Assembly (NCBI GenBank): GCA_013141175.1
Contig: JABFRN010000001.1
Location: 992,001-1,056,000, forward strand
Direction: 5' to 3'
DNA from: Lysobacter sp.
GTDB taxonomy: Bacteria > Pseudomonadota > Gammaproteobacteria > Xanthomonadales > Xanthomonadaceae
DNA length: 64,000 nucleotides
Numbering within the stretch: the stretch's first letter is position 1; each line of letters begins with the position of its first letter. The position numbers and the translations under genes were made by a program. Under the pieces are notes generated by a model that had not been told where the DNA came from, made no database searches, and saw nothing but the letters and a program-made list of their open reading frames with translations. This document shows positions 30,098 to 43,755 of this stretch, one piece after another.

Positions 30098-32053
30098 ATG
30101 GACCGGACGCCTCTCCTCGTTCTCTTCGCCATCGCTTGGCTGCTGCCGACGACGCTTCACGCGCAGGACGCCACGGCCCCGGCGACGCAGGCCCGGTCGG
30201 CGGCGGCAAGCCCGGGCCTTCTGTTCGACACGCTGGCGAGCCGGTATGGCGTGCGTGGGGACGACGAAATCGCGGACGAGGCCGCTCAAAAGGCCAGGAT
30301 CGTCGAACTGACGCACGCGCTGCCCCCGAACGACCCGGTGCGCAGCGCGCGCCTCGATGCCTATCGCTGCATCACGCTGCTGGACGGCCCCGACGCTTCG
30401 CTGTCGCGCGCCGAGACCGGACTCGCCGGACGGCCCGCGCAGCGCGAGCCTCTGGTGCGGATGGAATACCTGATGTGCAAGGCGTACGCGTTGTTCGACC
30501 AGGGCAACCGCACCGACTACATCGTGCCGGTGAACGAAGTGCTGCGACTCGCCGACCGCCGGCGGTATCCACGCCTGCGCTCCGGCGCGCTCTTTCTGCG
30601 CTCGTTCAACGAAAGCGACCAGGGCCGTTACGCGCAGGCGCTGACCACCCTGCGCGAGGTGCTGGCGCTGGATCGGACGCGCGAAGCGCCGAACGCGACG
30701 CTCCGCACCGAAGTCATGATCGCCAATACTTTCATTGATCTCGGCTTCAACGAGCGTGCGATCGCAGTCCTTCGCGCCCTCGAGAAGAACGCGCGCGCAG
30801 GAGGCCAATCGGGGCCCCTGCAAATGGTGTTGGAGCGCCTGGGCCAGGCCGAAGAGCAGTCGGGGCGCCTCGACGCCGCGCTTGCGAATTACCGCGAGGC
30901 GGCAGGGCTGGCGCGCTCGCAGGGCGGGCACGACAGCCATGCCTCCTTGATGCTTCGGATCGCCCATGTCCATGTGCTGGCCGGTCGCCTGGACGACGCC
31001 AGAAGCGCGCGCGAGGAGGCCGATCGCTCGCTGTTCCGCAGCGGGTCGACCGAGGCCATGCGCGCGCGGCGCGGCTACCTCGACGCGCGCATCGCACTCG
31101 AGTCCGGCGATGCCGGTCGCGCCGCCCTGCTGCTGCCGGACGTGATGCAGCGCCTTCGCGACGACGACCAGCCGCAACCCCTGGTCGACGCGCTCGACGT
31201 GCAGGCGCGCGCCTATCGCGAACTCGGCCAGTGGCGCGCGGCGCTGGACGCGCGCGAGGAGCAGATCCGGTTGCGCACCCAGCTCGACCAGCGCATGCAG
31301 CGCGAGCAGGCGCGCGTGCTCGCCGCCGAGCTGGCGTTGAGCCGGGAAACCGCCGACAAGCTGCGCTTGTTGCGGCAAACGGACGCGCAGCGGCTCCAGT
31401 TGCAGGCCGCGAAGCGCGAGCAGCGCCTGCGACTGATCGCGATCGTGCTGCTGGCCTTGCTGCTCGGCGCCGTGGCGGGCCTGCTGCTGCTGACCCGCCA
31501 TCGGCTGCGTGGCGCGCGCTATGACGCGATGACCGACAGCCTGACCGGCGTCGTCTCGCGGCGCTATCTGCTGGACCATCTGGCGCGCATGTTGTCCGAC
31601 CGGCACGGCGCCGCTCTCCCGCTGTCGGTGCTGGCCATCGACATCGACCACTTCAAACAGATCAACGACCGCTTCGGTCACGCCGTGGGCGACGAAGCCC
31701 TGCGACGCGTGACCGAGGCCTGCCGGCGTGCATTGCGTGAAACCGACGAGTTCGGTCGCTTGGGCGGCGAGGAGTTCCTGGCCGTGCTGCGACGAACCTC
31801 GCTCGCTCACGCCGAACACCTCGGAAAGCGGTTATGCGAGGTCGTCGCGGCCTTGACGATGGACGACGTGACGCCCGGCCTGCGCGTTACCATCAGCATT
31901 GGCGTGGCCGAAGCAGCCGTGAACGATGAGGGCGCTGACAAGTTGCTGCTTCGCGCCGACGCCGCGCTTTACGAAGCCAAGAACAGCGGTCGCAACTGCG
32001 TCCGGGTCGCGCCAGAGAATCAGGCGGGTTTTCGCGCTACGCGCGGCGGTTGA
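30098..32053 (+). CDS. Membrane diguanylate cyclase with periplasmic TPR-like sensor
   Basis: This 651-residue protein makes cyclic di-GMP from GTP. In order it has a signal peptide (to about LHAQD), about 350 residues of helical TPR-like repeats, a coiled coil (about 400-455), one transmembrane helix (LIAIVLLALLLGAVAGLLLL, about 448-467) and a GGDEF domain with the active site GRLGGEEFLAVL and the preceding DIDHFKQINDRFGH. The inhibitory RxxD motif is present just before the active site in reduced form (RETDEFGRL). The layout matches TPR-GGDEF receptors that sense periplasmic signals. Its first half is duplicated at 18226-19170. A hairpin follows the gene. Confidence 0.93.
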   Translation: MDRTPLLVLFAIAWLLPTTLHAQDATAPATQARSAAASPGLLFDTLASRYGVRGDDEIADEAAQKARIVELTHALPPNDPVRSARLDAYRCITLLDGPDASLSRAETGLAGRPAQREPLVRMEYLMCKAYALFDQGNRTDYIVPVNEVLRLADRRRYPRLRSGALFLRSFNESDQGRYAQALTTLREVLALDRTREAPNATLRTEVMIANTFIDLGFNERAIAVLRALEKNARAGGQSGPLQMVLERLGQAEEQSGRLDAALANYREAAGLARSQGGHDSHASLMLRIAHVHVLAGRLDDARSAREEADRSLFRSGSTEAMRARRGYLDARIALESGDAGRAALLLPDVMQRLRDDDQPQPLVDALDVQARAYRELGQWRAALDAREEQIRLRTQLDQRMQREQARVLAAELALSRETADKLRLLRQTDAQRLQLQAAKREQRLRLIAIVLLALLLGAVAGLLLLTRHRLRGARYDAMTDSLTGVVSRRYLLDHLARMLSDRHGAALPLSVLAIDIDHFKQINDRFGHAVGDEALRRVTEACRRALRETDEFGRLGGEEFLAVLRRTSLAHAEHLGKRLCEVVAALTMDDVTPGLRVTISIGVAEAAVNDEGADKLLLRADAALYEAKNSGRNCVRVAPENQAGFRATRGG

Positions 32054-32241: not shown

Positions 32242-34860
32242 TCAGAACGTGATGCTCCAGCTGTCGATGCGCCCAACGTCTGCGCGATCATTGTCCCTGA
32301 CGCGCAGCGTCCAAGTACCATTCAGCTGCTCGGCCGACAGATTCACCAGATAGGTTCTGAAGATGTTGTCGGTGGGGCCGCCGCTTCTGTTGTGCAGGAC
32401 ATACACGCTGTTGTCCGGCGCGACCAGATCGACTTTCAGATCGCCGATGTAGGTGTGGAGAATATTCACCGATACGAGCGTGTTCCCCGGAGCGGCACCG
32501 GTACGGCCGGCGACGTTGATCGTGCTGTAGACGGTCGTAAGGTCGGGGATGACGACGTCCGTGGTGTTGCTGTAGGTCTGGACAACACTCGCGCCCACGT
32601 CGATGGCTTGAGTCCTGACATGGGTCAATCCACTGTTGTCGGTCACGGTCAGGGTGACGGTGTACGTACCCGCAGCGGCATAGGAATGGCTCGGATTGAC
32701 GGCAGTCGATGTGCTTCCATCGCCGAAGTTCCATGCCCTCGATACGACCGTGCCGTCGGAATCCGACGACGCATCGATGAACGTTGCCGTCGCACCCGAC
32801 ACCACGAACGTGAAATTCGCGACCGGTGCGATATTGCTCACATTGAATGCCACGGCGGACGAAGTCGCCGTGTTGCCTGCGGCGTCGAAAGCCTTGGCTG
32901 TGAGCGTATGCGCGCCATTGGCTATCGTCTTGGAGTCGAAGACGATTGCGTAGGGCGAGGTGCCGTCGCTGCCGCGCAATACATCGTCGATGTAGAACTC
33001 GACGTTCGTCACGCCGACATCATCCGTCGCCGTTGTCGAGAGCGTGATCGCGCCGCCGGTGCCGGTTTCGCTGGCGCTGACCACAGGCGGCGTCGTATCC
33101 GGCGCGCCTGCGGTCTGCGTCACCCACTCGGGCGCTGACCACAACCGCAGGCCATTGGCCTGGGTGACGAGAACGTAGTAGAAGTGCGGGCCGATCGCGG
33201 GCGTGAAGGTGTAGTCGCCGCTGCCTTCGGCGAGCTGCGTCACCGTGCCGTTGCGACCGGGCACGCCTTCGAAGAACTGCACGCGTTGCACCGTCTGCCC
33301 ACTCGTGCTGGCATAGACCGCCGAGAGCGTCAGTGCTCCGCTGTTGCTGAAAGTCTCGCCCATCACATGGCCGTTCGCGGTGAGCACCAACTGTCCGGTC
33401 TTGTCTTCGGCCGCGAAGGTGCGCCGGGCGCGCAGCGCATCCACGAAATTGGCCTGGTTCAGCACCGTGCCCGTCGGAAGCAGGACACCGGTACGATTGG
33501 TGAAGCTCAGGCCCCAGTTCGCGCAGTGATTGTCCTGGTTGGTGGCGGGCGCGACTTTGTAGCCGCGCTCCAGCAGGAGATTCCACGCGCCCGTGTAGGA
33601 GCTGCGGCTGGTTTCGGTCTCGGTGGTGTTCACCGAGAACGCCGAACTGTTGATGATTTCGGTGAGCACCATCACTTCCGCACCATCGGCGTTGTAGCCC
33701 ATGCCGGTGGTGCCGATGGCGAACTGCGAGGTCGACGGATGGTTGAACTGACCGACCCAGCCGCGCTGCTTCATCACGGCATACAGCGCCGCGTAATCGT
33801 TCTTCGGCGTGGACACCGCGCCGATGAGCTGACCGCTTGCGTTGCTTTCCCAACTCGTCAGCCCATCGGGGTTGATCAGGTTGAGGTGGCCACCGTTGTT
33901 GATCACGCCCCATTCCGTACCGTACAGCGCAAGAAAATCGGCGTTGGCGGCGTTGAAACTCGCCGCTGCGGAAATGCCGCTGGCGAACAGCGCATTCGCG
34001 GTCGCCGGGTTGGCGGAGGTATTGGTCCCCGTCGATCCGTCGTACATGTGGTTGTGTTCGGAGGCCAGCAGGAAATCGCTGCCGGCCAGAGTCCGCATCA
34101 TCGTATAGGCTTCGGTCGGCCCGAAGTCGCCCGCTTGCGGCGACTCGGAACCGTTGCAACTGGCGAGCGCCGTACCGCCATCGCTGTGGTTGGTCTGGCT
34201 GTGCAGATTGCCGTAATAGATCGTGTAGGGAAGGCTGGCGGGCGCCGCGATGGATCTGGCCGTTGCCCTGCCCGCAGCTGTCTTGCCTGTCGCGGATGCG
34301 TTGCGCGCCAATGCGTCCTGCTCAACGCCGACCGGCAGCGCGACACGCGGCGTGATCTTCGCTGGCGCGACCGCGCCCACCATCACATCGATGCTCTGTA
34401 TATGCGCTTCGTCACCGAAAGCCGAGAATGCTTCCGCAATCCTCGTCGCAAGCGGCAATCGCACGTCCGAGCTGACCTGGATCGTCGGCGTGGCGCGCAG
34501 GCGCAATGAATAGTAGCCGGCGGGTAGCGCGAGATTCTTCTGGTCGCGCCCGTTCCACTCGACGCTCACGACACCATGCTGCCGGGGCAACATCTTGATC
34601 CCGTGCCATTGGCGCACGACGCGCCCGTTGGGAGAAACGGCTTCCAGTATCCACGCTGCAGCGGTCACATTGCCGGCGGCGGGGTAATCGAAATACAGCG
34701 TGACCGGCCACCCGCCGGAGACGGGCTTCAGTGGTGCGTGGAGTGTTGCATCGAATTCGTAGTGGTCCGGATGAGCCAACGACGTTGCTTGCGCAGCGCC
34801 TGCCCAGACGAACGTCAACGACAACGCCAGCGCCGTACGGCGCCACTTGCAGTAATTCAT
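32242..34860 (-). CDS. Secreted PHP-domain exoprotein with Ig-like, PKD and P domains
   Basis: This 872-residue secreted protein has a signal peptide (cleavage near AAQATS) and an N-terminal beta domain. A PHP-type phosphoesterase domain starts at YYGNLHSQTNHSDGG (about residue 217) and includes SEHNHMYD, GQFNHPS and TNQDNHCANW, matching the CehA/McbA-like group of metal hydrolases. An Ig-like domain (about 595-680), a PKD domain (WNFGDGSTS) and a C-terminal proprotein-convertase P domain (IGDLKVDLVAPD ... WSITF) follow. P domains often close type II-secreted exoenzymes in Lysobacter and Xanthomonas. The hydrolysed substrate is unknown. The gene converges on the cyclase gene. Confidence 0.88.
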   Translation of the reverse strand: MNYCKWRRTALALSLTFVWAGAAQATSLAHPDHYEFDATLHAPLKPVSGGWPVTLYFDYPAAGNVTAAAWILEAVSPNGRVVRQWHGIKMLPRQHGVVSVEWNGRDQKNLALPAGYYSLRLRATPTIQVSSDVRLPLATRIAEAFSAFGDEAHIQSIDVMVGAVAPAKITPRVALPVGVEQDALARNASATGKTAAGRATARSIAAPASLPYTIYYGNLHSQTNHSDGGTALASCNGSESPQAGDFGPTEAYTMMRTLAGSDFLLASEHNHMYDGSTGTNTSANPATANALFASGISAAASFNAANADFLALYGTEWGVINNGGHLNLINPDGLTSWESNASGQLIGAVSTPKNDYAALYAVMKQRGWVGQFNHPSTSQFAIGTTGMGYNADGAEVMVLTEIINSSAFSVNTTETETSRSSYTGAWNLLLERGYKVAPATNQDNHCANWGLSFTNRTGVLLPTGTVLNQANFVDALRARRTFAAEDKTGQLVLTANGHVMGETFSNSGALTLSAVYASTSGQTVQRVQFFEGVPGRNGTVTQLAEGSGDYTFTPAIGPHFYYVLVTQANGLRLWSAPEWVTQTAGAPDTTPPVVSASETGTGGAITLSTTATDDVGVTNVEFYIDDVLRGSDGTSPYAIVFDSKTIANGAHTLTAKAFDAAGNTATSSAVAFNVSNIAPVANFTFVVSGATATFIDASSDSDGTVVSRAWNFGDGSTSTAVNPSHSYAAAGTYTVTLTVTDNSGLTHVRTQAIDVGASVVQTYSNTTDVVIPDLTTVYSTINVAGRTGAAPGNTLVSVNILHTYIGDLKVDLVAPDNSVYVLHNRSGGPTDNIFRTYLVNLSAEQLNGTWTLRVRDNDRADVGRIDSWSITF

Positions 34861-35170: not shown

Positions 35171-35719
35171 TCAGCTGATCACAAGCATGTAGTCACCGTG
35201 TTCGAGACCGCTCGTGTCTTCGATGGCGGTAATCACCGCATCAGGATCATCGGTCCGAACCACCTCTGTCGTCACCCCGTTGATGATCGCGTAGATGCTG
35301 CAGGTTCCGGCCAGCGACAGGGTGACGATGTTGAAAGCATCCTTGACGACGACGGTCTGCAGATGGATGCCGCTGTCGCTGATGGTAAAGGTCACCGGGC
35401 TGGTGGTCGTCGTCTGGAATTCCAGCAGGTCGGGGCCGCGCGGCGGGATTTCCTGCATGTCGAACAGATAAGTGCCCTGGGGCGCGTGTTGCAGGACCTG
35501 TGCGAGGAAGCCCGCCGGACCGGACACCGTGATCGGCGCCGATGTGTAGGTGTTGCCTTCGATGACCGTGGTCGCCACCACCGTGAAGTTCTGCGTGTCC
35601 GGCACCCGCAGTACCCCACCGGGCGCGACAGGCGGCGTGCGTGCGATGGTCTGCTCGCCTTTCTTCACGACGTAGATGGCAGGAAAGCGGGTGTTGTTCT
35701 GCAGGCTCAGAAAGGGCAT
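35171..35719 (-). CDS. Beta-rich protein at the end of the CHAT operon
   Basis: This 182-residue protein has no export signal. It is almost all short beta strands (NNTRFPAIYVVKKGEQTIAR, TVVATTVIEGNTYTSAPI, LEFQTTTTSPVTFTI) and has one cysteine, a composition like small jelly-roll or Ig-like proteins. AAGGAG lies 7 bases before the ATG at 35719; the open frame upstream is not supported. It is the last gene of the minus-strand operon with the TPR-CHAT protease, 90 bp downstream, and could be its substrate or partner. I do not recognise a family. Confidence 0.7.
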   Translation of the reverse strand: MPFLSLQNNTRFPAIYVVKKGEQTIARTPPVAPGGVLRVPDTQNFTVVATTVIEGNTYTSAPITVSGPAGFLAQVLQHAPQGTYLFDMQEIPPRGPDLLEFQTTTTSPVTFTISDSGIHLQTVVVKDAFNIVTLSLAGTCSIYAIINGVTTEVVRTDDPDAVITAIEDTSGLEHGDYMLVIS

Positions 35720-35771
35720 CGCAAACTCCTTGGTGAAAAGAATCGGAATAGAACCGGGACGAAATTGAGCC

Positions 35772-35781
35772 GGGACACCCA
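35772..35781. repeat. Orphan end of the GGGACACCCA element
   Basis: GGGACACCCA occurs in the short gap between the CHAT gene and the beta-rich gene; the following bases (ATCCCATTGCG) resemble the left end only loosely. It is the rightmost trace of the element in the window. Confidence 0.45.
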
Positions 35782-35809
35782 CCATCCCATTGCGCTATTC
35801 CCGAAGCTG

Positions 35810-38416
35810 CTAACGGGTGTGCTCGCTACTCCCGGAAACATAGACGACGAACGGCGCCCAGTAGTAGGGCTTGCGATAGGCCGTATCGGAATGCAGCAAC
35901 GCCAGCTTGGCCTGGCGCAGTGCGGCGGCGGGCTCCGCACCGGCCGCGATGCGGCGATACAGGTCGGTCATCAGCTCAGCCGTGGAGGCGTCTTCGACCG
36001 GCCACAGTCCGCCGATGACGCGCTTCGCGCCTGCACTCAGGAATGCCCAGGACAAGCCCACCAGGCCTTCGCCGGAGAACGTCCGCGTGCCGGCGCTGCG
36101 GCATGTCGACAGAGTCACGAGTTCGGCGCTCAACGGCACCGCGATGACATCCCGCGCATAGAGCTTGTATTCGCCGGCGTCGGCCGACAGCACGACGGCC
36201 GAGTCGAGCGGCACCACGGGATTCGCCTGCGCGTGCGCGGCCAGGTGAATGTAGGCGAATCGTTCCGGATCGGCATTGCGATATGCCGAAGGCTTCGCAC
36301 GACGCCCGGTGTAGATTCGACGCGCCTCGGGTTCGAACAAGGCGGCAATCGAAGCGGCTTCCTTGCCGGCGAACGGCAGCGCCGGGAATTCGGGATCCGC
36401 CGACTCCGGGTCGCCAAGCACCAGCAGGGACCGTTCGTGCGCGGGCAATGGTCGTGATTGCGCGTGCAGCAGGCGCAGCGACGGCGTTCTCGCCACCACC
36501 GCATCCTCGATCAGATAGTGGCGCTGTGCGGCGCGCGGAGGATGGCCGTCGAGGTCTCGCCCGAGGTCCTCTCCACTGTCGCGCTGATGTTCGGGGACCA
36601 CCAGGGTTTCGAAATTGAGCTGGTCGAGTGGACCATCCGATACGATGATCACGCGCTGCATCGATGTCATCGCCGTCGCCACCGGCTGCACCAGCAATCG
36701 ATACAACTCGGTGGCCTCGGGCGCCGCTTCGTCGAGAGGATCCCGTGAGTCGAGAATCCGCCGCTGGTGGGCGGCGATCAGCGCGCTCAGGGTGTTTTCG
36801 CCCGGCAGCGTAACCAGTGTGATGTCGTCGGCGGTGATCGCCCATAGGAACGATCTTTCAGGAGCGATCGAATAGAACAGCAGCAATGCATCGAAGTCGC
36901 GCGCCAGACGGCGATAGTCGGCCGGGCGGCCCGGCACGGCGCCAGCGCCCCGCAGTCGTTCGCGCAGCAACCGCGCGCGGCTTTCGTCGGCAACCCGCAG
37001 CGCTTCGTCGCTGCGTCCCTGGGCAACCAGAAAATCGATGTAGCCATCGTAGAAGCGACCCATATTCGAGATGAACGGCAATTGATGCTCGGCCTGCTGC
37101 AACTGCGCGAGGGAGGTTTCCATCAGTTCGAACGCTTTGCGATACGCGGTTTCCGCTTCGACCGGACGCTGGGCGCGCGCATGGAGGCGGGCCAGAGCGG
37201 CGTGCGCCTCCCACACACGATCGGGCTCGGCATTCGCCAGACCGAGGACTTCGTTGTAGAGCGCAGCCGCCCGCGACGATTCTCCACGGCGTTCCCATGT
37301 CTCGCCCAACAGCAGCAGCGTTCGCTGCTGTTCCTTGAAGAACCGATGTTCGACCTGGATCCGGAGCGCTTCCTCGGCCCGCGATGTGGCTTCGTCGAAG
37401 TTGCCGCGCTCCAGCGCGAGCGCCGCCCGCGTGGCCTGGATATCGGCCAGCGCCTCTGCAGACCCTTCGCGATCGTCGAGCGCCTGCGCGATGGCGGCGG
37501 CGCGGGCGTAGGTTTGGCTGGCGCGCGCGTGATCGCCCTGGCCCTGCAGCGAGCGGCCGAAATTCTGCAGTACGATCCGACGATCGCCCGAGAGATCGAG
37601 CTTCTCCATCAGCACCTCGGCTTCCGGAAGCACCTGGATGGCACGCTCGTAATCGCCGAGCAGGTAATAGCACCAGCCGAGCCGGCCCAGATTTCTGGCG
37701 CGCGTCGCACCTGCGGGAAGGCCGGCCGCCAATGCTTCCGAGCGGCGAAGCCAACGAACGGCATCGTCGTACTTGGCGGTGTCGGCACGGAAGTTGCCGA
37801 TGTTCCCTGCTGCCTGCGCCTCGATCAGCCGGAATCCCTGTCGCTGCGCCGTGTCCATGGTCTTGTGGAAAAGCGCTTCTGCGGTCTCGCGGTAGCCTCG
37901 CTCTGCTGCGCAGTTGCCGCTTCGAAGCAACACCTCGGCGGCCAGCTTCGGGATGCGCAGAACATCAGCGATATGCTCCGCCGCTTCCAGGTCGGCCATT
38001 GCACGGGTGCGGGCGTTTTCGCGATCGCGCTCGTTTTCGCCATCGGGCGTGAGGCAACGGGCGTAGCCGCGGGCCATCAGTGCGCGCGCAAGCACGCGAT
38101 CGCGCGGCCGTTCGACGGAGAGGCCTGCGTCGAGTCGACGCAATAATTCGGGCGTGATCTGGCGTTGAGCGACCAGTACCTCGGCGTCCAGCACATCGAA
38201 GGCCCACGCCCAAGTCTCCTCTCCTGTGCCTTGGGCCTGCCTCAGCCCGTCTTCGGCCAGGGCTTTCGCAGCGCCAAAGTGCCCCGACTCGAGTTCCCGA
38301 TAACCGTCGCCATAGATTTTCTCGAGCGGTACCTGGTTGGCGCTGCACGCCGCAACGATCAGCGCGAGCAGTGCGATCGCGGCGTCACGGATCCCAGTGG
38401 CCGTTGCTGTCGACAT
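35810..38416 (-). CDS. Lipoprotein-type TPR-CHAT protease
   Basis: This 868-residue protein starts with a lipoprotein-like signal (DAAIALLALIVAACSANQ, lipobox VAAC), then about ten TPR-type helical repeats (about residues 30-480), and a C-terminal CHAT domain, a caspase-like (clan CD) cysteine protease. The predicted catalytic dyad is present: His728 in HLAAHAQ and Cys772 in LSTCRSAG, followed by the family's GLSWAFLSAGAKRVIGGLWP. The start at 38416 overlaps the previous gene by 32 bp. The signal would put the protease in the periplasm, on the same side as the C-terminal domain of the anti-sigma factor from this operon. TPR-CHAT proteins are known to be activated through their repeats, as in type III-E CRISPR; the trigger here is unknown. 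Confidence 0.92.
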   Translation of the reverse strand: MSTATATGIRDAAIALLALIVAACSANQVPLEKIYGDGYRELESGHFGAAKALAEDGLRQAQGTGEETWAWAFDVLDAEVLVAQRQITPELLRRLDAGLSVERPRDRVLARALMARGYARCLTPDGENERDRENARTRAMADLEAAEHIADVLRIPKLAAEVLLRSGNCAAERGYRETAEALFHKTMDTAQRQGFRLIEAQAAGNIGNFRADTAKYDDAVRWLRRSEALAAGLPAGATRARNLGRLGWCYYLLGDYERAIQVLPEAEVLMEKLDLSGDRRIVLQNFGRSLQGQGDHARASQTYARAAAIAQALDDREGSAEALADIQATRAALALERGNFDEATSRAEEALRIQVEHRFFKEQQRTLLLLGETWERRGESSRAAALYNEVLGLANAEPDRVWEAHAALARLHARAQRPVEAETAYRKAFELMETSLAQLQQAEHQLPFISNMGRFYDGYIDFLVAQGRSDEALRVADESRARLLRERLRGAGAVPGRPADYRRLARDFDALLLFYSIAPERSFLWAITADDITLVTLPGENTLSALIAAHQRRILDSRDPLDEAAPEATELYRLLVQPVATAMTSMQRVIIVSDGPLDQLNFETLVVPEHQRDSGEDLGRDLDGHPPRAAQRHYLIEDAVVARTPSLRLLHAQSRPLPAHERSLLVLGDPESADPEFPALPFAGKEAASIAALFEPEARRIYTGRRAKPSAYRNADPERFAYIHLAAHAQANPVVPLDSAVVLSADAGEYKLYARDVIAVPLSAELVTLSTCRSAGTRTFSGEGLVGLSWAFLSAGAKRVIGGLWPVEDASTAELMTDLYRRIAAGAEPAAALRQAKLALLHSDTAYRKPYYWAPFVVYVSGSSEHTR

Positions 38417-39227
38417 TTGCGCACATGATACGCCCTGTGATCGGACAGCCAAGCTCGATGCGCAACATGGTAAGGCGACGCGAGGCGCGCGTGATGAGGT
38501 ACTCGCCGAAGTAAGCGACGCCGAACCCCGGGATGGCGATGCCATGCATGCCGCTCGGCGTGCAGCCGGCCGGCAACGCCGATTGAATTTCTTTCAGATT
38601 GAATAATGGCGCCAGCAGCGTTCGGTCGGAAGTGGTTTTCAGCACATCTGAAAAATGGTCTTCCGGTATTTCGTTGTCGTCGATCGGAGCGCCGCTGGAA
38701 TACATAAAGGGGACGCATTCGCTCGAATCGCAACGACGCAGACAGGCCCGGACCAATTTCTGATAGGTGCTCGTTTCCTCGCTCACCAGTTGGGGGTACG
38801 GGCTGAGTTCGATCGGTACGCCACCGATGCGCAGGTTCTCGAAGTGGCTGCCGAAAGGAAGCGCTTCAGGGTCGGAGCCGTTCTTCCTTTCCGCGTTCGT
38901 GGACGTCATGCGGGCGACGACGCGATCGGCGGTGATGACATCCAGGATATTCAGGCCTTCGATGGCGACCGTCACCAGGGTGTCGCCGCTGGTGATGCCC
39001 TCATGCGTCACCTTCTGCCCGGAGACGGTACTGGTGGCGCGTTCGAAACCGACGATGTTCCTGTAGTCGAACCTGCCGACGGATGTCGAGGCGAATCCTC
39101 CCATCGGAGGCAGGACGCAGGTGCCCTGCGCATCGATGTTGTCGCACACCGGGCTGACGATCCGGCCACCCATCACCATCGTGCTGCCGCGAAACCAGAA
39201 TGCGTGTTCGTTCGTCTTGAGGCTCAT
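38385..39227 (-). CDS. Unknown protein between anti-sigma and CHAT genes
   Basis: This 280-residue protein has no signal peptide or membrane segment. It is beta-rich at the N terminus (EHAFWFRGSTMVMGGRIVSP) and carries seven or eight cysteines, including a cluster CLRRCDSSEC near residue 164. The C-terminal half includes FGVAYFGEYLITRASRRL. It directly follows the anti-sigma gene (no gap) and overlaps the CHAT gene by 32 bp, so it is co-translated with both. Its place makes it a candidate substrate, adaptor or activator of the protease. I recognise no family. Confidence 0.78.
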   Translation of the reverse strand: MSLKTNEHAFWFRGSTMVMGGRIVSPVCDNIDAQGTCVLPPMGGFASTSVGRFDYRNIVGFERATSTVSGQKVTHEGITSGDTLVTVAIEGLNILDVITADRVVARMTSTNAERKNGSDPEALPFGSHFENLRIGGVPIELSPYPQLVSEETSTYQKLVRACLRRCDSSECVPFMYSSGAPIDDNEIPEDHFSDVLKTTSDRTLLAPLFNLKEIQSALPAGCTPSGMHGIAIPGFGVAYFGEYLITRASRRLTMLRIELGCPITGRIMCANVDSNGHWDP

Positions 39228-39935
39228 CTACTTTTCCTCACGGGTCAGGGTGAAAAGGTACCGGGTGACTTCGGGTGGGGCGGTCCGCTCGTCGGCCTGC
39301 CGACCGGTTTGCGCATCGCGCGGATCGATGCCCGACAATTCGACCGCATATCGGCCGGATCCCAGGCCGGACACCGGCAGCAACAGCTGCAGCTCATCGC
39401 CAGCGGCGGGCGCAGCGACGAAGGAAGACAGCACCTGCGCGCCTTCGGCGTCGCGGACGTCGACCCGATAGCGCGTGGGCGACTCGTAGCCGGTACGGCT
39501 CAATCTCAAGCCGATCATCCGCTGCTGCGCGCCTACGCGAATCTCCGCCGGATCGCTGCGCGCGACCGACAGGAAATGCCAGCTGGTGGCCTGCAACGCC
39601 TGGGCGCGGGCCAGATCCTGCCGCAACTGCGGTACCGTGACGACGGTCTGGTAGACCGCTGCGCCAAGCAACAGCACGGTAGCGGCGGCGATCGGCAGGA
39701 TCAGCAATCGAAGGCGTCGCGCCGCGCCGGTCAGGCGCCGTCCCATGGACCGTTTGCCGAGCGCATTCCGGATGTCTCCGATGAAAGTCGCGAGCGACCT
39801 CACGTCCTCGGCGCACTCCGGACAGGTGAAGAAATGCTCTTCGAATTCCGAGCGCTCCTCCTCGCTCAACTCGTCGAGGGCATAGCTTTCGGCAATCGCT
39901 TTGCGCATTGCGGTGGCGTGATCCATCGTAGTCAT
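39228..39935 (-). CDS. Zinc-finger membrane anti-sigma factor
   Basis: This 235-residue protein has an N-terminal zf-HC2/ZAS domain with the zinc motif HFFTCPEC (His34, Cys38, Cys41), one transmembrane helix (about residues 76-95) and a ~140-residue periplasmic C-terminal domain of beta character. ZAS anti-sigma factors hold their partner ECF sigma factor at the membrane until they are proteolysed or change shape. Its ATG overlaps the sigma gene's stop by 4 bp, fixing the pairing. The large periplasmic domain is a plausible target for the CHAT protease. Confidence 0.92.
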   Translation of the reverse strand: MTTMDHATAMRKAIAESYALDELSEEERSEFEEHFFTCPECAEDVRSLATFIGDIRNALGKRSMGRRLTGAARRLRLLILPIAAATVLLLGAAVYQTVVTVPQLRQDLARAQALQATSWHFLSVARSDPAEIRVGAQQRMIGLRLSRTGYESPTRYRVDVRDAEGAQVLSSFVAAPAAGDELQLLLPVSGLGSGRYAVELSGIDPRDAQTGRQADERTAPPEVTRYLFTLTREEK

Positions 39936-40525
39936 CCGTTGCGTTTAGTGACGTCGGTGCGCGCCAGATACAAGGCGCGGAAGCGCAGCTTGGCGCGGTG
40001 CAGCAGCACGCGCAGGTAGCTGCGATCCACTTTGAACTCTTCGCATACCTCGTCCTTGTCGCGCTCCTCGACGAAGAGCGCGCGCATCAAACGCCGGTCG
40101 GCGTCGGGCAGGTCGTCGATCACGCGCCGGACGAGCACTCTGCGTTCGACCGCCTGCAGGCGGTCCACGACCATCGGCGCATCGTCTTCGATCTCGGCGA
40201 TCGAGTCATCGGACATCGTGATGTGGCGCTTCTCGGACCGATACAGCTCCATGAGCACATGGTCGCAAACCGTATTGACGTAGGCTCCGATCCGCTCCGG
40301 ATGGCGGATCTCCTCGTCGGAACGCAGCGCCTTGAAAACGCGCAGGAAGGTTTCCTGGCAGGCGTCTTCGACCAGTTGACGCGAGCGCAGCCGCGAATGC
40401 AGTTTGATCCTCAGCAGATCCTTGAAGTAGGCGACGAAATGCCGCTCGGTCTCCGGGTCTCCACCGCGAAGACGATGCACGTAGCCGGCATCGAAGCGCT
40501 GGAAGTCCCGTCCCGCGTGCTGCAT
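39932..40525 (-). CDS. ECF-family sigma-70 factor
   Basis: This 197-residue protein has region 2 (RQLVEDACQETFLRVFKAL, the -10 binding helix) and region 4 (LPDADRRLMRALFVEERDKD and VDRSYLRVLLHRAKLRFR, the -35 binding HTH). Region 3 is absent, as in ECF sigma factors. The start at 40525 (after GGACGGGATCCC) gives the normal ECF length; the longer frame to 40669 is not needed. It leads the operon sigma, anti-sigma, unknown, CHAT protease, beta-rich protein, and probably controls its own operon and the divergent one. Confidence 0.92.
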   Translation of the reverse strand: MQHAGRDFQRFDAGYVHRLRGGDPETERHFVAYFKDLLRIKLHSRLRSRQLVEDACQETFLRVFKALRSDEEIRHPERIGAYVNTVCDHVLMELYRSEKRHITMSDDSIAEIEDDAPMVVDRLQAVERRVLVRRVIDDLPDADRRLMRALFVEERDKDEVCEEFKVDRSYLRVLLHRAKLRFRALYLARTDVTKRNG

Positions 40526-41060
40526 GGGATCCCGTCCTGGGTGCTGCAAAGGTAGAACCAGTATAGCCACGACTTGATTCCTCGAATGCCTCGCTGATGT
40601 CTTCGACCGGGCCGGATTCCGGGCGTCCGGGGGTCGGCGTCCAGCAGCCGCGAACAGCCGCCAGCGCAACGCGCCGTTCTCAGTAGTGACAATCGAGCGC
40701 CGAACGTTTCAAGCGGACGCAGACCGCATTCAGGAACCTCCGCCGCCAGGACGCCAAGCGTGCATCGCGCGGGCGGCACCGCCTCGGATGCGTCGCCTCG
40801 GATGCGTCGTGCATCGCGACCGGAAACGTTACGTCTCCGAACATCACTACACACACAAGCGACTCGCCTCCACGACGCGAGCGCCCACCGACTTCCGCGC
40901 TGCGGATATCGATCGGGCGCTCCGCGTCATCGCAATCGCGATCGCATTGCGGCGCGTCCACCTGTGGCGCGCTCGAGTCAGACACGCTGCAGCAAGACCC
41001 ATCCAATCGCGCAACCGCACCGCATGCCGGCAATGCGCGACCACCCGTCAGGAGAGCGTC
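40526..41060. promoter_or_regulatory. Divergent control region of the sigma-CHAT and 756-residue operons
   Basis: This 535-bp gap separates the two divergent operons and must contain both promoters. It has no convincing gene, although GC-rich open frames cross it. I could not identify a matched pair of ECF-type -35/-10 motifs by eye. An AGGAGAG ribosome binding site for the rightward gene stands at its right end. Confidence 0.55.
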
Positions 41061-43331
41061 ATGAGCAAGCACATCACCGATTCGAAACACGAAGGCGACA
41101 AGCCCGGAACTTACAAGCTGGAGCTGGTCGGCCTGACGGCGGCGGGCGAAAGACCCGACATCGCCATGCAGGTGCTCGACAACAAGAATGCCGTGCTTCT
41201 GGCCCAGAACATCGACGACGACGGACGTTTCAACATACCGACCGACGTGCTCGATCGCGCGCACCGCGTCGTGCTGGGTGCGCCCGACGACAAGACCGGT
41301 ATCCGCGCCGATGCCTTGATCACTTATCGCGCTGGCGAGTTCCTGGCGCAGATCGCCGATGGCCGGCTTGCGCTGGCCGAACGCATCTGGTCGCGCCTGC
41401 GTTTCCATTGGACGTGCGTCAGCGGGAGCGTCCGGGTGTGCAAGCGTCGTCGATGGTGGTTCGAGAGCATCGTCGCCGCCGCATCGCCGTCGCTGGCGCG
41501 CAGGCGGATCGCGACGAGCGTTCAGCGCTTGAGCGATCCATCGTCGGCATCGGCGTTCCATCCGATCGCGCCGTCGCTCAACGAATTGATCTATTGGCCG
41601 TATCGCTGCGCGCCGGTCTGCCGGGGAATCGTCGAAGTGTATCGCCGCACGTGCTGCTGCTGGCCGATCGTGTTCGACGATATCCGCATTCCCGATCTGA
41701 TCCGCGATCTCGAACGCTATGTCGTACGCCTGCCGAAATGGCCCGGGCCCACGCCGGATGTCCCGACGCCGCCGATCGGCGATCCGTTGCAGACGCCATT
41801 CTTCAAGGGCGGCGCGCTCAACGAGCTTCCGATCAACGCCGCGAGCGATCTGCGGATGCTGCGTTCGCTGCCGTCGGATCGGGCGGCGGAATACATCCAG
41901 AGCCGCGCCTATCTGTTCCATCGCCTGTGCCGGTGCGGTCAACCCAGCAAGGTCGGCACTGGCACCATCCAGCCCGACGGCAGCTTCAATATCTGCTGGC
42001 CCGAGCCGTGGCGCCTGCTGTCCGTGAACTGCTACGAGCAATACGCCTACGTGGTCAAACAGACGATCGGCAGCACCACCACCACGTTGTACAACGGTCT
42101 CACCGCAGACGCCTGGTTCGCCGCTGGCGATGAGCCGGTGCTCACCTCATACAACAGCAATGCGTTCGCGTGCAACGAAACCGGTACTGGCGGCGGCGAT
42201 GCCTATGTCTTCCTCGATCTGATCGGCGACACCGAAAGCCACGAGCTCACGACGCCCACCTCCGCCGGATGGGACCGCGTTGCCACGCCCGACGCAAATT
42301 CGGGCCTGCTGTTCCCCGGCGTTGGTCCGAACAACAGTCATTTGCGCAATCTCGGTGGCCGGATCGAGTTGACCTTCGTCTTCAGCCTGGGCATGCGCGA
42401 TCCGGCCGTCGGCGCGCACTACTACCGCATCAGCATCTGCCAGGCCGACGCGGACGGCAATCCGACCGGCCCGCGCCATTACCACGGCGACGGGCTGGCC
42501 TGGGACAAGATCGTCGGCGCCGATATCGTTCCGGAATCGCTCGGCCCGGTATCCGTGGGCGGCGAAACGAATCTGTATCGCATTCCCTACAGCGACGAAC
42601 CCTGGGTCGGATCGGTGCGTTACCACGCATTGATCGACACCACGATCGCGTCATTGAATGCGCCCATCGCCCACGGCCCCGCCGCCATCAATCGCATGAT
42701 CACGCTCGAAGTCTTCGATGCCGGCGGCAAACGCCTGCGTCCGCTCGGCGCACCGGCTTCCGGTCAACCGGGAACGGAACTGGCCAAGCCCTTCAAGTAT
42801 CGTCGCTGGTTCCAGCCCGGCGGCAGTGTGGGCGACGACACGATCGAAGTCCCCTTCGCGGCGCTGACGCATCTGTTCTGTTGGGACAACCGCCCGCCGG
42901 TGGCCGATATCCTGCAGCTGAAGATCAACAACATCACGTCGAACGAGGAATGCCAGTTCTGGCATGGACCAGGCGACTCCACCTTCGCGATCGAATACAG
43001 CGCTTATGTGCCGGATGAGCGGTTCCAGTACGCCCACGACATCGCATGGCTGCGGGGTCTGAACGCCTCGGCTGCGAATGGCGGCATCGGCGCGCTGCCG
43101 ACGCCACTCAGCCCGGCCAACGCGGGCAAACCGCCCTCGCTTCCGGCCATCAGCGGCAGCAATACATTCGAACAGATGCTGACCCGACTCGACGCACCGA
43201 ACCCGCCGACGGTGCTGTCGCGATGCGCGTTCGCGGTCACGCTGACGACTTACGCCAAGACCACCAATGGCGAGGATCTCAGCTACCCGTACGCCCCGGA
43301 GACCGCAGCGTTCGCGCTGGCGATCGACTGA
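41061..43331 (+). CDS. Large unknown protein divergent from the sigma-CHAT operon
   Basis: This 756-residue protein has no signal peptide. An N-terminal beta domain (GTYKLELVGLTAAGERPDI to about residue 85) resembles a small Ig- or CnaB-like module. A Cys/Trp-rich middle follows, with PYRCAPVCRGIVEVYRRTCC, RLCRCGQPSKVGTG and FNICWPEPWRL, the latter like a carboxypeptidase-regulatory beta sandwich. The C-terminal half is beta-rich with FVFSLGMRDPAVGAHYYRIS. AGGAGAG precedes the ATG. It is followed by the DUF1360-like and CGQK genes in one operon. I recognise no known family; it may be a surface or structural protein controlled by the neighbouring sigma factor. Confidence 0.8.
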   Translation: MSKHITDSKHEGDKPGTYKLELVGLTAAGERPDIAMQVLDNKNAVLLAQNIDDDGRFNIPTDVLDRAHRVVLGAPDDKTGIRADALITYRAGEFLAQIADGRLALAERIWSRLRFHWTCVSGSVRVCKRRRWWFESIVAAASPSLARRRIATSVQRLSDPSSASAFHPIAPSLNELIYWPYRCAPVCRGIVEVYRRTCCCWPIVFDDIRIPDLIRDLERYVVRLPKWPGPTPDVPTPPIGDPLQTPFFKGGALNELPINAASDLRMLRSLPSDRAAEYIQSRAYLFHRLCRCGQPSKVGTGTIQPDGSFNICWPEPWRLLSVNCYEQYAYVVKQTIGSTTTTLYNGLTADAWFAAGDEPVLTSYNSNAFACNETGTGGGDAYVFLDLIGDTESHELTTPTSAGWDRVATPDANSGLLFPGVGPNNSHLRNLGGRIELTFVFSLGMRDPAVGAHYYRISICQADADGNPTGPRHYHGDGLAWDKIVGADIVPESLGPVSVGGETNLYRIPYSDEPWVGSVRYHALIDTTIASLNAPIAHGPAAINRMITLEVFDAGGKRLRPLGAPASGQPGTELAKPFKYRRWFQPGGSVGDDTIEVPFAALTHLFCWDNRPPVADILQLKINNITSNEECQFWHGPGDSTFAIEYSAYVPDERFQYAHDIAWLRGLNASAANGGIGALPTPLSPANAGKPPSLPAISGSNTFEQMLTRLDAPNPPTVLSRCAFAVTLTTYAKTTNGEDLSYPYAPETAAFALAID

Positions 43332-43377
43332 GGCCGATGGCGACGACGATGACGCATCGCGCACCCGGGAGCGGACG

Positions 43378-43755
43378 ATGATCGATGGGGATGGCGACTT
43401 CTGGCCGAAGCTGGCGGTGGCCATCCTCGCGACCTGGCGGCTTGCGCATCTGTTCGCGCACGAGGACGGGCCGGCCGATCTGATCGCGCGTGCACGGGCA
43501 AGGCTGGGCGATGGCGCGTGGGGCAGGATGTTCGACTGCTTCCAGTGCCTGAGCCTGTGGGTGGCGGCACCGGTGTCGGTGTGGCTCATGACCGGACCGA
43601 TCGCGACCGAACCGATCACGGCGTGTCTGATGTGGTTGGCCGTGTCCGGCGCAGCCTGTCTGTGCGAGCGCATCGGCCAGCCCGACATCGTGATGCAACC
43701 ACTGCCCGAAACGAATCAGGGAGAAGACGATGGGATGCTGCGGACAAAAACGTAA
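43378..43755 (+). CDS. DUF1360-like membrane protein
   Basis: This 125-residue protein has three hydrophobic segments (about 10-25, 55-72 and 76-95) and the pair LATWRLAHLFAHEDGPADLI and MFDCFQCLSLWVA, where the CxxC next to a helix is typical of DUF1360 proteins. GGAGCGG precedes the ATG at 43378. It lies 46 bp after the 756-residue gene and overlaps the next gene by 26 bp. Function is unknown in the family as far as I know. Confidence 0.8.
   Translation: MIDGDGDFWPKLAVAILATWRLAHLFAHEDGPADLIARARARLGDGAWGRMFDCFQCLSLWVAAPVSVWLMTGPIATEPITACLMWLAVSGAACLCERIGQPDIVMQPLPETNQGEDDGMLRTKT

Follow-up and report, generated by a model that had tools for sequence, protein, structure and literature searches.

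Here, we describe a four-gene unit, encoded on the minus strand of the Lysobacter sp. genome GCA_013141175.1 (contig JABFRN010000001.1), that combines an extracytoplasmic function (ECF) sigma factor and its membrane anti-sigma factor with an exported relative of the caspases. The unit was studied in a 64,000-nucleotide stretch of this contig (positions 992,001 to 1,056,000 of the forward strand, hereafter the window). It comprises the genes for the sigma factor (197 aa, 39932..40525), the anti-sigma factor (235 aa, 39228..39935), an all-beta protein of 280 aa (38385..39227) and a lipoprotein of 868 aa made of tetratricopeptide repeats (TPR) and a CHAT domain (35810..38416). The unit is real and widespread, and it is apparently undescribed, as a literature search, not covering the key ECF classification paper, returned no description of this operon. 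The best explanation for this assembly, in which we place moderate confidence, is that the exported CHAT protein would act as an envelope-side site-1 protease on the anti-sigma factor.

The first four genes run in the same direction and are tightly packed: the sigma and anti-sigma genes overlap by ATGA, the start of the 280-aa gene abuts the anti-sigma stop codon (TAG|ATG) and the CHAT gene, whose start ATG lies at 38416, shares its first 32 nt with the 280-aa gene. A fifth open reading frame (ORF), encoding a beta-rich protein of 182 aa (35171..35719), follows on the same strand after a gap of about 90 nt, so that all five ORFs are present on the minus strand between 40525 and 35171. The initial annotation, which had listed these five ORFs with their families, the His728 and Cys772 residues, a lipoprotein signal on the CHAT protein and overlapping or abutting junctions over the first four genes, was borne out on each of these points by our reading of the ORFs and by domain searches.

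Conservation of the unit and recurrence of its core

A search with the CHAT protein yielded 66 loci, whose neighbouring genes were scored with profiles built from the window proteins. The order sigma factor, anti-sigma factor, 280-aa protein and CHAT protein, all on one strand, was found in 37/37 distinct loci with the third gene, the window included; since both order and strand are kept throughout, a chance arrangement is excluded. In this count L022 and L034, which represent one place, were taken once, the sigma gene of L058 is cut by a contig end and the CHAT frame of L043 lies further off. The hosts are mainly Acidobacteriota, plus one metagenome-assembled genome of Myxococcota and Luteimonas panaciterrae. 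Close relatives of the CHAT protein without the other genes (L036, L066, L068 and L069) start at a contig end, and the distant CHAT proteins of the same search (from Bacteroidota, cyanobacteria and others) are without the four-gene arrangement. Around 41 loci, no further gene family recurred in more than a handful.

The reverse test, started from the third protein (alignment A1) in 297 Acidobacteriota genomes, gave matches in 19 of them. Among the 18 further loci thus obtained, a CHAT gene stands beside the third-gene match in 17 (16 on the same strand, one divergent), the exception (L132) being a weak match (E 3.7e-5) inside a 718-aa frame. All four genes are present in 12 of the 18, and the remaining loci are either truncated at a contig end or have a changed arrangement (L115, L117, L127, L130 and L131); no sigma or anti-sigma gene was recognised beside the third-gene/CHAT pair of L127, and L115 is without the sigma gene. 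Because of this 17/18 adjacency, the third gene is linked more tightly to the CHAT gene than to the sigma gene. In the divergent case (L131:1625-6942), the third gene is divergent from a pair formed by a zinc-finger anti-sigma factor and a lipoprotein CHAT, with no sigma gene recognised in the stretch examined. Both searches thus uphold the four-gene operon as the conserved unit. The initial annotation had proposed a unit of five genes; its fifth, the 182-aa gene, matches no Pfam family and has no relative in related loci. This gene was therefore rejected as a member, leaving a conserved unit of four genes, not five.

A smaller core recurs elsewhere. Acidobacteriota and Myxococcota provided another 60 CHAT loci, nine of which have a same-strand ECF gene nearby, and seven of these nine (L199, L205, L214, L216, L217, L228 and L242, by sequence reading) show an ECF gene, a gene for a one-helix anti-sigma-like protein and a CHAT gene in direct succession, without the 280-aa gene. 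The CHAT proteins of these triads carry an export signal where the start is readable, that of L228 being not resolvable. The same triad, with a zinc-finger anti-sigma gene, was found in two Lysobacteraceae loci, L033 and L027, the latter with its TPR half as a separate ORF. As other CHAT subfamilies form operons without the third gene, we regard the sigma factor, the anti-sigma factor and the exported caspase as the core. A different third gene occupies the same slot in another Lysobacteraceae locus (L028:4048-9790), where an exported CHAT protein, an ECF sigma factor and an anti-sigma-like protein with one helix but no zf-HC2 are accompanied by a 417-aa protein showing trypsin-like motifs by eye and no Pfam match. 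CHAT genes can also be abundant, with at least 21 matches, often neighbouring copies, in each of two Acidobacteriota genomes (G209 and G221).

Conservation of the gene order across Lysobacteraceae, which the initial annotation had looked for, did not hold: the order is rare in this family, with two genomes found. The third gene occurs in 1/11 genomes of the window's genus and in 1/369 of its class, in both cases the window's own, and in 1/237 of the Myxococcota sample; in the family search over 149 genomes, one full-length CHAT match (73%) was obtained besides the window's own genome. In the CHAT tree, the window and Luteimonas sequences group with Myxococcota and Thermoanaerobaculia sequences (100/100). 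The simplest reading of this pattern, with loss as the alternative, is that the unit reached Lysobacteraceae by transfer. Among plasmid records, no CHAT protein covering 80% of the query was found.

Encoded proteins and flanking genes

The sigma factor matches the sigma70-ECF family TIGR02937 (56.8 bits for a cut-off of 42.9, E 2e-15), has regions 2 and 4 only, and keeps its position in the conserved loci. Upstream of the sigma genes no shared promoter motif was found in what is a weak test, the one motif returned lying in the coding part. The anti-sigma factor is the sole zf-HC2 match in the genome (29.6 bits for a cut-off of 22.2, E 7.5e-7), and the HxxxCxxC residues of its zinc finger (H31, C35 and C38 in the numbering of alignment A2) are invariant. 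With zf-HC2 encoded beside a sigma gene and one transmembrane helix, it belongs to the zinc-finger anti-sigma (ZAS) factors. Its AlphaFold2 model (predicted local distance difference test, pLDDT, of 84) shows helices between residues 3 and 64, then a long one (76-109) that takes in the membrane stretch, a flexible linker of low confidence (111-113) just outside the membrane helix and a beta-sandwich (strands within 118-229) with Ig/cupredoxin-like matches, which is predicted to be periplasmic. Past the linker, at the end of the first strand, lies a nearly invariant Arg (R123, A2 numbering); it was considered as the P1 residue of a cleavage site and set aside as a lead, being equally explicable as structural.

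The CHAT domain (PF12770) was identified with 196.8 bits for a cut-off of 24 (E 7e-58), together with TPRs, and the protein is the only CHAT protein of the 4.16-Mb genome. The window sequence carries a lipobox (VAAC, Cys24) and the catalytic-type residues His728 and Cys772; Cys24, H724, H728 and C772 are all invariant in the family alignment A3. The residue preceding the lipobox Cys is G, A or S in 35/35 rows of A3, the strict pattern [LVI][ASTVI][GAS]C is found in 17 of the 35 and the leaders are hydrophobic; for some of the relatives the start codon was picked by a script and could be wrong. The conserved signal agrees with the lipoprotein export anticipated in the initial annotation, and the protein reads as an exported lipoprotein and predicted protease. 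In enterobacteria, the absence of Asp after the lipobox Cys directs a lipoprotein to the outer membrane, a rule that is uncertain outside this group. As Asp never occupies this position in the 35 rows, an outer-membrane destination is suggested for the CHAT lipoprotein.

The third protein, for which the Pfam search returned nothing, scores just over the cut-off of the choice-of-anchor P family NF040603 (28.3 bits for 27), and 21 of its 37 family members match NF040603, with a best E of 3.5e-11. Its AlphaFold2 model is mostly beta (pLDDT 89.8). Foldseek gave no solved-structure match at E<=0.001 and a second aligner none at Z>=5, which does not make the fold new, and no sequence match was found to any PDB chain, Csx29 complexes included. 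The choice-of-anchor P family presumably has an N-terminal signal peptide and a C-terminal surface anchor. By sequence reading, neither was seen in the third protein and its relatives, and in the window a stop codon directly upstream of the gene leaves a signal peptide no room; a tail of the NG..[WYF]P(P) type is shared by many of the members. The third protein is a distant, apparently cytoplasmic, member of choice-of-anchor P. Its partner inside the cell may be the anti-sigma factor or the sigma factor; alternatively, it may be exported by an unrecognised route or may signal upon leaking into the periplasm.

Pairwise distances across the four genes are correlated far above label shuffles. The closest link between genes joins the periplasmic part of the anti-sigma factor to the TPR part of the CHAT protein (r 0.87, partial 0.45), followed by that between the third protein and the same TPR part (0.82, partial 0.45). 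These values count as soft evidence, since regions that evolve fast may show such correlations even when they do not touch.

As for the flanks, no RNA element was matched by Rfam around the operon. Divergent from the unit, a gene encoding an 881-aa protein without any known family (40686-43331, plus strand) was rejected as a unit member, as it has a relative in Luteimonas only; it is followed by a DUF1360-like gene (43267-43755, plus strand; E 9e-4, below cut-off). In Luteimonas panaciterrae (L022), too, both genes border the unit, and in an acidobacterium (L037) a related small gene lies near the sigma gene. On the other side, the window encodes an 872-aa protein (32242-34860, minus strand) in which a CehA/McbA-type metallohydrolase region, scoring below cut-off, is combined with Ig-like, PKD and proprotein-convertase P domains, and a TPR protein (30098-32053, plus strand) whose C terminus is a GGDEF domain, set apart from the repeats by a hydrophobic stretch.

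Candidate route from the envelope to the sigma factor

In the route that we favour, the unit would signal across the membrane on its own. The zinc-finger anti-sigma factor in the inner membrane would keep the ECF sigma factor bound on the cytoplasmic side, and the TPR-CHAT protein would face its C-terminal beta-sandwich, that of the anti-sigma factor; as an exported and lipid-anchored protein, it would have its caspase-like domain in the periplasm. Upon an envelope signal, probably sensed by the TPR part, the CHAT domain would make a site-1 cut in the periplasmic portion of the anti-sigma factor, most likely within the linker that joins membrane helix and beta-sandwich, and intramembrane and cytosolic proteases would then complete the breakdown and free the sigma factor. 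The 37/37 gene order, the invariant lipobox Cys and His/Cys pair, the recurrent triads, the correlation of 0.87 and the linker all fit this route, which leans as well on the precedents of Csx29/Csx30 and DegS/RseA. That exported CHAT proteins stand behind ECF/anti-sigma pairs in several subfamilies fits a functional link. Several points weigh against it. A conserved export signal is no proof that the CHAT protein and the anti-sigma factor meet, and a CHAT protein at the outer membrane would have to span the periplasm to reach its substrate. A site-1 model leaves the 280-aa protein, constant as its linkage is, without a role, most of the sampled CHAT loci of Acidobacteriota and Myxococcota are without a nearby ECF gene, and rate differences common to the proteins, instead of contact, could underlie the distance correlations. 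Cleavage itself is a prediction from anatomy. A more specific form, which we put forward tentatively, is that a CRISPR-independent, caspase-fold lipoprotein, exported and possibly at the outer membrane, would cut the anti-sigma factor, and that separation of the two, or a cytoplasmic partner leaking after a breach of the membrane, would be the damage signal.

The CHAT protein could instead be the output of the system, the sigma factor driving the operon that encodes it and, once the regulon is switched on, the exported caspase cutting other envelope proteins or foreign ones. ECF factors often autoregulate, the genes are co-directional and tightly packed, and most sampled exported CHAT proteins have no ECF neighbour; we nevertheless consider this unlikely, as several CHAT subfamilies lie directly behind an anti-sigma gene and the weak promoter test gave no shared motif. 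Slightly less probable still is a role of the 280-aa protein as substrate or gatekeeper of the CHAT protein, similar to Csx30, whereby it would bind the TPR part and, once cleaved or released, alter the sigma/anti-sigma complex. Its gene is the constant neighbour of the CHAT gene (37/37 and 17/18 loci), even in L127 and L115, and its distances follow those of the TPR part. The protein has no signal peptide, however, and the CHAT protein is exported, so that separate compartments are expected for the two; moreover, triads without the 280-aa gene exist, and the PDB chains to which the protein has no sequence match include the Csx29 complexes. We find it improbable that the CHAT protein is a non-catalytic receptor whose TPRs bind the beta-sandwich and relay a ligand signal with no cut being made. 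TPRs do serve as binding modules, and a change of conformation can suffice to control an anti-sigma factor, but the family-wide invariance of His728 and Cys772 makes a pseudo-enzyme unlikely.

Relation to known systems and significance

The closest described logic is that of the type III-E CRISPR system Csx29/Csx30/CASP-sigma, in which a TPR-CHAT protease, Csx29, is encoded with an ECF sigma factor and its inhibitor Csx30, and cleavage of the inhibitor lifts inhibition (PMC10028731). Csx29 acts in complex with Cas7-11 and crRNA (CRISPR RNA) and is activated by target RNA (PMC10028731), whereas in the window unit the CHAT protein carries a lipoprotein signal, the anti-sigma factor is a zinc-finger protein of the membrane and no Cas partner was recognised. 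The window CHAT protein falls far below the cut-off of the Csx29 family NF041237 (17.8 bits for 300) and matches Csx29 in the PDB with E 0.059 only. PADLOC, run on the operon proteins, returned no CRISPR or defence match beyond generic TPR, which agrees with the CRISPR-independence put forward in the initial annotation, the genome as a whole not having been searched for Cas7-11. Another protease-controlled ECF factor is that of the type III CRISPR system CalpL/CalpT/CalpS, where a protease cuts the anti-sigma factor and frees the sigma factor; CalpL is a SAVED-Lon protease activated by cyclic oligoadenylate (PMC11417357), and the window candidate is an exported caspase.

In the DegS-RseA-SigmaE system, where DegS cleaves RseA (PMC10028731), and in the RsiW-type systems, the anti-sigma factor is likewise a membrane protein that has an extracytoplasmic domain, and the first cutter works on the envelope side, as we infer for the window unit. 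The candidate site-1 enzyme of the window unit is an operon-encoded caspase-fold CHAT protein, whereas that of the DegS type is a PDZ serine protease. Compared by gene neighbourhood, the unit also resembles the ECF54 group, whose neighbours include CHAT, subtilase and carboxypeptidase proteins and for which proteolytic control was proposed (PMC8999054); in both, a CHAT gene is conserved next to that of an ECF sigma factor, the zinc-finger membrane anti-sigma factor belonging to the window unit. Finally, chain B of PDB entry 8rot (CHAT domain-containing protein, 991 aa) appears to join both operon modules in a single protein, bearing a zf-HC2-like motif at its N terminus (Pfam E 7e-4, below cut-off), a hydrophobic stretch and, at its C terminus, a CHAT domain. 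This protein is a fusion and is distant in sequence from the window proteins; no similar fusion of zinc finger, transmembrane stretch and CHAT was found in the 60 CHAT loci of the two phyla, and its N-terminal piece gave weak matches only, in Myxococcota.

To our knowledge, most exported bacterial relatives of the caspases (CHAT proteins) have no known substrate. The unit offers a candidate substrate and a readout by sigma activity in one small operon, which makes the role of envelope caspases directly testable. If the proposed route is true, the link between TPR-CHAT proteins and sigma factors would extend beyond CRISPR and across a membrane, and protease-controlled anti-sigma signalling would gain a caspase-driven form that reports the state of the cell surface to the genes.
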